A stretch of DNA of 64,000 nucleotides, from positions 397,722-461,721 of the forward strand of contig NZ_KB908056.1 in assembly GCF_000382325.1 (NCBI RefSeq). Reading direction: 5' to 3'. Both the position numbers and the translations under genes were made by a program. This stretch comes from Woodsholea maritima DSM 17123. GTDB lineage: Bacteria; Pseudomonadota; Alphaproteobacteria; Caulobacterales; Maricaulaceae. Numbering within the stretch: position 1 is the first letter of the stretch; each line of letters opens with the position of its first letter. The notes below the pieces were generated by a model. The model was not told the origin of the DNA. It did no database searches and saw nothing but the letters and a program-made list of their open reading frames with translations. Shown here one piece after another: positions 29,365 to 48,615 of the stretch.

Positions 29365-29437
29365 TCCTCTTTCGCGTTTGAACCCATGCTAGAGGATGGG
29401 GCGCAGTTGGCCAATCAAGAACTGGCGCAAAAGCGGT

Positions 29438-29531
29438 GGAAGACTGGACGCGACCCGAACGAAAACTCGTTACGGCTGCTTCCTTCCGGACCTGACCGGG
29501 TTGGCGAGGCGCTCGTCCGCGCCAGCCTTCC
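29438..29531 (-). ncRNA. ffs: Signal recognition particle RNA (4.5S type)
   Basis: Read on the minus strand, the core GTCAGGTCCGGAAGGAAGC is the universal SRP RNA apical region, followed by AGCCGTAACGAG. The ends pair as GGAAGGCTGG (29531-29522) with CCAGTCTTCC (29447-29438), with one G-U pair, giving a hairpin of about 94 nt, the usual bacterial size. The RNA binds Ffh and directs membrane proteins to SecYEG. Its place upstream of dnaX is conserved in alphaproteobacteria. The ends are accurate to a few bases. Confidence 0.95.
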
Positions 29532-29594
29532 TCATGGAATATTGCGTCTTCGCAGCGCGAACGCAAGACACCCGCTCAGCCCGAACGCAGCCCC

Positions 29595-30713: not shown

Positions 30714-30742
30714 ACACCCCGCAAGTAAAACCTGCGGGGTGT
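30714..30742 (-). terminator. Terminator of first outer-membrane barrel gene
   Basis: ACACCCCGCA (30714-30723) and TGCGGGGTGT (30733-30742) form a perfect ten-pair stem. On the minus strand it is followed by TTTTTATT. It lies 28 bp past the stop codon. Confidence 0.9.
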
Positions 30743-31339: not shown

Positions 31340-31352
31340 AGGATCCCCCTAA

Positions 31353-31379
31353 TAAAAAAATGAGCCGAAAACGACTCAT
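31353..31379 (-). terminator. Terminator-like hairpin directly upstream of barrel gene 1
   Basis: On the minus strand ATGAGTCG (31379-31372), loop TTTT and CGGCTCAT (31367-31360) form an eight-pair stem with one G-U pair, followed by TTTTTT (31359-31354). Only 14 bases remain before the start codon at 31339, so there is no room for a promoter in between. It may be a leader attenuator, or it may end a short upstream transcript. Confidence 0.65.
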
Positions 31380-31467
31380 CGGTTTATGAATTACGGGAAA
31401 ACGCCTAACAAGAGAAAATGCGCGCATTTACAGAATTGTCATAAATTTGATCAACCTACACACGAAA

Positions 31468-31493
31468 AAGGCTCCGTCAATGGACGGAGCCTT
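31468..31493 (-). terminator. Terminator of second outer-membrane barrel gene
   Basis: AAGGCTCCGTC (31468-31478) pairs perfectly with GACGGAGCCTT (31483-31493) around a four-base loop, with a T run on the minus strand from 31469 to 31465. It lies 28 bp past the stop codon. Confidence 0.9.
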
Positions 31494-32054: not shown

Positions 32055-32383
32055 TGATCCTAATCCCTTTGTTAGACAGTCATTTTTTTGCGAGCGTTAA
32101 CGCCCGTGCCGCCCACAATTGGGGAAGGAGCCCTCGTCTTACAAGCGCCTTCTGCGGTAAAATGCATGTTTTAAATGAGGAGCTCACCTCTCTGTGTCGC
32201 AAAAAACACATATTTGAGAAAAGAGGGCAACATTGCCGACAAGTTGCCACATTTCGGCCATAAAAATTAAGCCCCACTCACGAAGAATGGGGCTTAAAAT
32301 CAGATCGTTCGCGCGACGGAGGTCAAAATTGAGCCCAAACGGCAAACTTCACTTAAGTTGTGACTGAATAGTCACACTTAATC
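32055..32383. other. Intergenic region between barrel genes 2 and 3
   Basis: No gene is supported. It holds a terminator for barrel gene 3 (32267-32297), a small dyad TGTGACT-GAAT-AGTCACA (32359-32376), a CGGGCG-TTAA-CGCTCG-type dyad near 32090-32106, and at about 32197-32240 a CGCAAAAAA/CACAT/TTTG/AAGA stretch that resembles a stretch upstream of barrel gene 3. Confidence 0.5.
32267..32297 (-). terminator. Terminator of third outer-membrane barrel gene
   Basis: TTAAGCCCCA (32267-32276) pairs with TGGGGCTTAA (32288-32297), and the minus strand then reads TTTTTA. It lies about 87 bp past the stop codon, further away than in the two sister genes. Confidence 0.75.
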
Positions 32384-48053: not shown

Positions 48054-48557
48054 TTAGCCCAAAAGCGCAGTTAAAAGATGACTATTCGGTAAAACGCTCA
48101 GCATTCCAGCTGCAATCGCGACACCATAAGGCGCAGGCGCGCCCTCTTCCACCACACATCTGGGCGCGTGGGTCGCAATATAGGGGATATGAGCCAGCTG
48201 ACGGCGCATGATAAGAAGACCAATGGCCAGAACCCCGCCCCATAATGCACTGAAACTGACAAAAGCGATCAGATCACTCCAGCCGACCCACAGCGCTAAA
48301 GCGGCCATCAGCTTGGCATCGCCCCCGCCAATCCAGCCCGGCGCAAACAGGGCAAAGCCGATCACCAGCATCAAGCCCCCGGCCAGCACAGCGTTCATAA
48401 TATCAGGCAGCGTCATCCCTAAAGCGAAAATTCCGACCGGAAATAAACCGATCAAGGCCAGCGCGATCCAATTAGGAATGGTATAGCCCATGACATCTTT
48501 GGCAGCCGCGACGAGGCTCAAACCCAGAACAAGAAAAATAACAATCGCAGCCATCAT
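48054..48557 (-). CDS. cpaA: Prepilin peptidase CpaA/TadV
   Basis: CpaA cuts and may methylate the Flp prepilin. ATG 48557 is preferred because AAGGGAG lies seven bases upstream; the frame also opens at a TTG at 48578. The product is about 167 residues with five or six membrane helices. It has the A24 catalytic motif APGWIGGGDAKLMAALALW; the first Asp of the pair is in LPDIMNAVLAGG. It is the first gene after the pilin gene and the head of the operon. Confidence 0.93.
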   Translation of the reverse strand: MMAAIVIFLVLGLSLVAAAKDVMGYTIPNWIALALIGLFPVGIFALGMTLPDIMNAVLAGGLMLVIGFALFAPGWIGGGDAKLMAALALWVGWSDLIAFVSFSALWGGVLAIGLLIMRRQLAHIPYIATHAPRCVVEEGAPAPYGVAIAAGMLSVLPNSHLLTALLG

Positions 48558-48615
48558 GATCAATCTCCCTTGTCTCAAATATAGAATATAGATCTAAACA
48601 TCACTTTAAAATAAA

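Follow-up and report, generated by a model that had tools for sequence, protein, structure and literature searches.

A terminator-like hairpin directly before the start codon of a tandemly duplicated outer-membrane barrel gene in Woodsholea maritima

Introduction

What does a structure with the features of a transcription terminator do immediately in front of a start codon? This question is raised by gene 1, one of three neighbouring outer-membrane beta-barrel genes of Woodsholea maritima. Here we examine the leader of this gene in the stretch of 64,000 nucleotides that we analysed (hereafter the window), together with the other barrel genes of the cluster and their homologues in related genomes. 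The features discussed are collected in Table 1, and all positions are those of the window.

Table 1. Features in and around the leader of gene 1
Feature	Position	Strand	Remarks
Gene 1 3' intrinsic terminator	30714..30742	-	terminator scan
Gene 1, outer-membrane beta-barrel protein, 189 aa	30770..31339	-	PF13505
Shine-Dalgarno-like AGGGGG	31345..31350	-	5 bases 5' of gene 1 ATG
Seven-T run	31354..31360	-	first T pairs within the stem
Terminator-like hairpin	31359..31380	-	9 pairs (8 without terminal G-T), TTTT loop
Degenerate candidate gene 1 promoter, CTTGTT-N16-TTCATAA / CTTGTT-N16-TTCATAAA	31383..31412	-	box at -73; chance-level score
UUUCCC pairing with Shine-Dalgarno in predicted longer (read-through) transcripts	31395..31400	-	folds; no better than shuffles
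Gene 2 3' intrinsic terminator	31468..31493	-	11 pairs, tail TTTCG
Gene 2, outer-membrane beta-barrel protein, 177 aa	31521..32054	-	PF13505
Gene 2 RpoH-type promoter motif, CTTGTA-N16-CCCAATT	32117..32145	-	8/8 conserved positions; predicted start ~32107
Gene 3, outer-membrane beta-barrel protein, 168 aa	32384..32890	-	PF13505

Results

The leader hairpin exceeds chance

Read along the minus strand, the leader of gene 1 consists of GATGAGTCG-TTTT-CGGCTCATT (31380-31359), seven T (31360-31354), ATTAGGGGGATCCT and the ATG of gene 1 (31339). The stem has eight pairs, one of them T-G, between ATGAGTCG (31379-31372) and CGGCTCAT (31367-31360) around a TTTT loop (31371-31368), and the terminator scan added a ninth pair, G-T (31380-31359). 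Six of the seven T fall after the eight-pair stem, and 14 bases lie between the end of the T-run and the ATG. The sequence thus confirms what a preliminary description of this DNA had reported, namely an eight-pair stem with a TTTT loop and six or seven T ending 14 bases before the start of gene 1. The arrangement is that of an intrinsic terminator, with a stable stem-loop (loop of 3-8 bases) directly before a T-run in the sense orientation. The region 31385-31345 folds with -11.5 kcal/mol (z -3.05), and only one of 200 shuffled sequences was equally stable.

To set the hairpin against chance, we scanned for terminator-like sites under a strict rule that asks for 8 or more pairs, 4 or more of them G-C, and 6 or more T in 8 bases, using a window gene list that was picked by hand. 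Seven sites were found on the two strands of the window, compared with one in six Markov-simulated 64-kb single strands, from which about 0.3 sites are expected per two-stranded window. A loose rule gave 18 sites in a 10-kb region against 12.1 +- 3.9 in shuffles; as this is near the shuffle level, it is the strict rule only that sets the hairpin apart from chance. By that rule the terminator-like hairpin is real and beyond chance. Its stem is nevertheless the weakest of the seven. It reaches -10.9 kcal/mol, while the 3' terminators of the barrel genes reach -19.8 (gene 2), -22.8 (gene 1) and -21.0 (gene 3) kcal/mol, with G-C in 4 of its 9 pairs and G-T, A-T and T-A pairs at its base.

The position of the hairpin is also unusual. 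In 264 kb of the same genome, with simple ORF calls, the strict rule yielded 26 sites, of which 16 follow a called stop by no more than 80 bases, four precede a called start by no more than 40, and four lie inside called ORFs. The leader hairpin is the nearest of all 26 to a called start codon, at 20 bases. The second-nearest, 22 bases from a start, is an ordinary 3' terminator 32 bases past a stop.

We also considered that the hairpin might be a dispersed palindrome or DNA operator. A palindrome scan of the genome found the exact 8-4-8 palindrome at one site, with one more site at one mismatch and two more at two mismatches, while the control scan of the backward sequence gave one site. These counts are near the control, so no operator family is evident and this candidate was set aside.

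Genes 1, 2 and 3 are tandem duplicates with contrasting codon bias

In a protein tree of 62 rows, which includes gene 1 twice (two loci, in the same place), genes 1 and 2 group together (98/91) and are joined by gene 3 (98/85), which has a long branch and an unusual composition. Because the three group, they are lineage-specific tandem duplicates. Tandem pairs of related barrel genes are also present in other genomes. A first search of genome contigs yielded no relative; a second contig search, with protein alignment, gave nine named loci with 28-50% identity. The named relatives belong to Marinicauda, Oceanicaulis, Alkalicaulis and a Maricaulaceae bacterium, with a more distant one in Hirschia.

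Codon bias differs among the copies. Gene 2 ranks 4th among 219 called genes, gene 3 51st and gene 1 74th, in a ranking based on simple ORF calls that takes only groEL and dnaK as reference (groES dropped out) and includes groEL itself among the 219. The terminator scan also bore out the earlier claim that gene 2, upstream, has its own terminator (31493-31468). This terminator combines a strong stem with a tail of only TTTCG, whereas the leader hairpin has a weaker stem and the seven-T run. The 87 bases between the gene 2 terminator stem and the leader hairpin contain no minus-strand ORF of at least 100 aa.

A conserved RpoH-type promoter motif in the barrel family

Leaders of the barrel family were taken from loci L001-L052, without 11 loci that belong to other families of the order; a start had to be at least 200 bases away from the end of its locus. 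Among the resulting 49 distinct family leaders, 38 contain CTTG between -102 and -71. We aligned these 38 leaders on CTTG together with gene 3, which was placed by hand at -116, and the 39 rows showed conservation at positions 23 (C, 30 rows), 25 (C, 30), 26 (A, 26) and 29 (T, 30). For counting, the three window genes and nine redundant leaders were removed and 37 were kept. Fifteen of these non-redundant leaders have the bipartite motif without a mismatch (mean 0.06, maximum 2, in 500 block shuffles), and 24 have it with at most one mismatch (CTTG-N18-CNCANNT), against 1.4 in shuffles. At 13 alternative spacings the counts ranged from 0 to 4.

As the motif was derived from the same leaders, most weight falls on the control with other spacings and on gene 2 as a held-out test. 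A matrix built from the 24 foreign sites placed the gene 2 site first of 127,924 window positions. Over 264 kb the same matrix placed it second, behind a site inside an ORF. Among the best 40 of 53 matches with a score of at least 9 in the 264 kb, four are intergenic, and only that of gene 2 lies less than 300 bases before a called start. Its promoter-motif rank and codon bias together make gene 2 look strongly driven.

The motif resembles the promoters of the heat-shock sigma factor RpoH (sigma32). For alphaproteobacteria, two articles give CTTGAA-N15-16-CCTATAT or CTTGCC-N15-16-CCTATCT for Sinorhizobium meliloti (PMC4843759) and C-37, TTG, A-12 and T-9 for Rhodobacter sphaeroides (PMC3441632). 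Gene 2 and the homologous leaders share CTTG, A and T with these promoters, spaced alike, but, unlike the published promoters, the barrel genes have C, not T, before the conserved A. In uncontrolled counts, the heat-shock genes groES, dnaK and hsp20 of this genome carry 7, 7 and 8 of the 8 motif positions, the last from an unsure start codon. Scored with the barrel matrix, the groES site comes no higher than 79th among 2516 CTTG positions of the 264 kb; it carries a T in place of the C of the barrel genes. A precedent for sigma32 serving an outer-membrane gene promoter comes from the Ehrlichia p28-Omp promoters, which are transcribed with sigma32 in vitro and yet give more transcript with sigma70 (PMC3836757).

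By its pattern the motif of gene 2 and the barrel family is RpoH-type, which suggests heat-shock sigma control of this outer-membrane protein family. Among the titles and beginnings of abstracts listed by a literature search, none reports this promoter family for Maricaulaceae. We regard the conserved motif as a more robust and more interesting result than the hairpin. A conserved RpoH-type motif in Maricaulaceae barrel genes would link the make-up of the outer membrane to the heat-shock sigma factor.

A further recurrent element was seen in the same alignment. A GGGCTGGGG-like stretch recurs about 38-46 bases past the start of CTTG, close to where the homologous mRNAs are predicted to begin; of the 39 rows, 27 have G at position 43 and 28 at position 44. 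It could be a pairing site for a C-rich small RNA.

A candidate promoter would start the RNA of gene 1 inside the hairpin

The likeness to RpoH promoters that holds for gene 2 is unconvincing for gene 1. The candidate box of gene 1 matches 6 of the 8 motif positions and lacks the first C and the conserved final T (T-9); after shuffling, 13.3 of 37 leaders still reach 6 of 8. The best RpoH-type scores upstream of gene 1 rank 1031 and 2307 of 127,924, the latter being the -73 box. A sigma70-like scan with approximate weights found in 88% of shuffles a site at least as good as the best one upstream of gene 1. An RpoH promoter for gene 1 was at first favoured from the CTTG at -73 and was then lowered by the matrix and sigma70-like scans.

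Other tandem arrays give mixed evidence on this box. A degenerate CTTGT box at -72 is found in the downstream copies of two other arrays (7/8 and 6/8 positions); the two copies are orthologous to each other and therefore count once, and they mildly support the -73 box of gene 1. In six further downstream copies this box is absent at -72. Across eight other arrays, the downstream copies match 8 of 8 positions in G063 and G035, 7 in G033 and G114 (the latter without CTTG), 6 in G119 and G129, and 4 in G107 and G117, compared with 8/8 for the upstream copies of seven arrays and 7/8 for that of G035. Downstream copies have thus often, though not always, lost the box.

If used, the -73 box would start the gene 1 RNA at about 31377-31374, within the 5' arm of the hairpin. 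This bears on the earlier argument that, with no room for a promoter between hairpin and ATG, gene 1 transcripts must read through the hairpin, which would suggest attenuation. The premise is borne out, as the hairpin is too close to the start codon. The conclusion does not follow, because a gene 1 start need only precede the Shine-Dalgarno sequence and could fall inside the 5' arm, so that full read-through is not required. At this predicted start the 5' arm contains GAGTC (31376-31372, minus strand). This is a GANTC sequence, the type of site that CcrM methylates in Caulobacterales.

The reading that we favour, tentatively and at somewhat less than even confidence, is that the hairpin and T-run form an insulating second terminator against read-through from gene 2 and overlap the start site of gene 1. 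Some polymerases would escape termination at the short tail behind the strongly expressed gene 2, and a second stop just before gene 1 would halt them, so that gene 1 would not be swept along by the RpoH-type promoter of gene 2. Gene 1, the lower-expressed copy, would be transcribed from a weak promoter that starts RNA within the 5' arm of the hairpin or at its edge. The transcript of gene 1 would then have a partial stem, or a 5'-terminal stem unable to stop polymerase, while incoming read-through RNA would bear the complete terminator. The low G-C content of the stem (4 of 9 pairs) counts against an insulator, since termination may be poor.

Folding of the leader and possible regulation by premature termination

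A terminator signature immediately before a gene could also mark a true attenuator, in which RNA begun between the two hairpins, or leaked from gene 2, is stopped or passed under the control of a regulator or of translation and so sets the output of gene 1. Premature termination in 5' leaders is described for E. coli in a 3'-end mapping study (PMC7815308). The leader of gene 1 resembles these cases in its terminator-like element and differs from them in that no antiterminator, riboswitch or leader peptide was identified. A sigma70-like site, TTGATC-N18-TAAATG at 31454, would give a leader of about 80 nt with the hairpin near its end, but this promoter is no better than those in shuffles. A minus-strand frame of 52 aa (31427-31269) crosses the hairpin, and its translation would block the stem; inspection of the sequence before this frame showed no Shine-Dalgarno. 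In minimum-energy folds for seven 5' ends from 31467 to 31377 the terminator stem was always kept (with six pairs at 31377) and no competing antiterminator fold appeared; with a 5' end at 31374 the stem was gone. Searches of the leader region against Rfam families gave no match, even at E up to 1. On this evidence we consider an attenuator distinctly unlikely.

The preliminary description had also raised a short RNA made between the two hairpins. Such an RNA, of about 65-80 nt, would start between the gene 2 terminator and the leader hairpin, end at the T-run and perhaps act on barrel mRNAs through UUUUCCC. The two hairpins do frame 87 bases with promoter-like sites, and UUUCCC is able to pair with the AGGGGG of gene 1. 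Against this, the sigma70-like scan found no significant promoter, the Rfam search was empty, and the pairing is no better than with shuffled upstream sequence, which for a start at 31419 masked the Shine-Dalgarno equally in 33% of 300 cases. The region 31467-31300 is not conserved in a DNA search of 98 other genomes, which returned one 19-base match (E 0.009) that we judged to be chance. We consider a short RNA very unlikely.

The same pairing could make the leader an RNA thermometer or otherwise mask the Shine-Dalgarno, and a thermometer in an ompA leader of Yersinia is reported (PMC8245352). For transcripts that begin at 31400 or further upstream the Shine-Dalgarno is predicted to be mostly paired with UUUCCC, and for starts at 31380 and 31377 to be about half open. 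Yet warming from 10 to 50 C is predicted hardly to free it, with a predicted accessibility of 0.11 to 0.21 for a start at 31419, and, as above, shuffled upstream sequence masks it as well. On these predictions the thermometer was rejected, and either form of masking is extremely improbable.

Leaders of homologous genes

We surveyed the leaders of homologues for comparable hairpins, using 33 of the 37 leaders after removal of four with unsure start codons. None of the 33 has a hairpin with a T-run (1.25 expected from shuffles). A stem of six pairs or longer, no more than 70 bases away from the ATG, is found in 23 of 33, where dinucleotide shuffles gave 11.3 +- 2.7. There is also an excess among other genes of the window's own genome, as defined by simple ORF calls (41 of 103 against 20.7, compared with 23 of 33 against 7.2 for the family, in mononucleotide shuffles), which weakens the leader hairpin as a family signature. 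The rate is higher in the family (Fisher p 0.003-0.005), whose leaders come from other genomes and have a G+C of 0.56 rather than 0.49. With the excess shared by family and other genes, and the T-run absent in 33 leaders, the stem is a widespread feature and the T-run particular to gene 1.

The stems raise the alternative that the hairpin is a 5'-terminal stabilising stem-loop. In this case the mRNA of gene 1 would start just before the hairpin, the stem would shield its 5' end from RNase E, and the T-run would serve as an A/U-rich linker to the Shine-Dalgarno. The 5'-terminal stem-loops of E. coli ompA and papA are reportedly mRNA stabilisers, as described by Emory, Bouvet and Belasco in 1992. 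The ompA precedent is also given in a review (PMC7509114) and in titles cited in another article (PMC3997798). Like them, gene 1 is a small barrel gene with a leader stem-loop shortly before the Shine-Dalgarno; unlike them, its stem runs into a seven-T run, its 5' end is a prediction, and it is a different barrel-family member. The family excess over dinucleotide shuffles fits this alternative, as does the layout of three downstream copies (L046_2176, L038_2175 and L007_2177), in which a hairpin of 6-8 pairs at -44 to -17 is followed by a short linker with AGGGG and then the ATG. The weak candidate promoter box of gene 1 would likewise put the hairpin at the 5' end of the RNA. The excess in other genes of the same genome and the origin of the higher family rate in G+C-richer leaders of other genomes argue against it, and a stabiliser has no need of the seven-T run that the relatives lack. 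We consider a stabilising role possible but rather unlikely.

A known kind of element in an unusual place

A T-run hairpin specific to gene 1 is what would be expected of an insulating second terminator, if the element is tied to the tandem layout and not to the gene family. Intrinsic (Rho-independent) terminators that stand in tandem, or that insulate neighbouring genes from read-through, are a known kind of element. The leader of gene 1 resembles tandem terminators in having a stem-loop and T-run in the sense orientation, second after the gene 2 terminator. It is unlike them in lying 20 nt from the next start codon and 87 bases past the first terminator stem, in its weak stem, and in overlapping the predicted start site of the next gene. 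The hairpin is a familiar type of element in an uncommon position.

The overlap could have a further consequence. Since the RNA of gene 1 itself would be without the 5' part of the stem, a start-overlapping terminator might act as a one-way filter that halts polymerases coming from gene 2, under strong heat-shock drive, and not those of gene 1, a proposal that we hold to be unlikely. If true, it would let a tandem duplicate escape the regulation of its parent, with a fresh tandem barrel copy uncoupled from the strong upstream copy by a 27-base element over its start site.

Other hairpins and neighbouring features

Two other terminator-like hairpins before genes were seen in this genome. One, of 14 pairs (48643-48613, minus strand), lies 35 bases before a PF01478 frame (type IV leader peptidase, 48054-48578), and the window gene list has no same-strand gene end nearby. 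The other, of 12 pairs (G000:C1:539722, minus strand, L083), precedes a called start by 40 bases, with the closest same-strand stop 484 bases away.

The barrel cluster itself is separated from dnaX by a gene for the bacterial small SRP RNA (29434-29532, minus strand). One distant homologue (L032) also adjoins an SRP-RNA-like stretch, as judged by eye.
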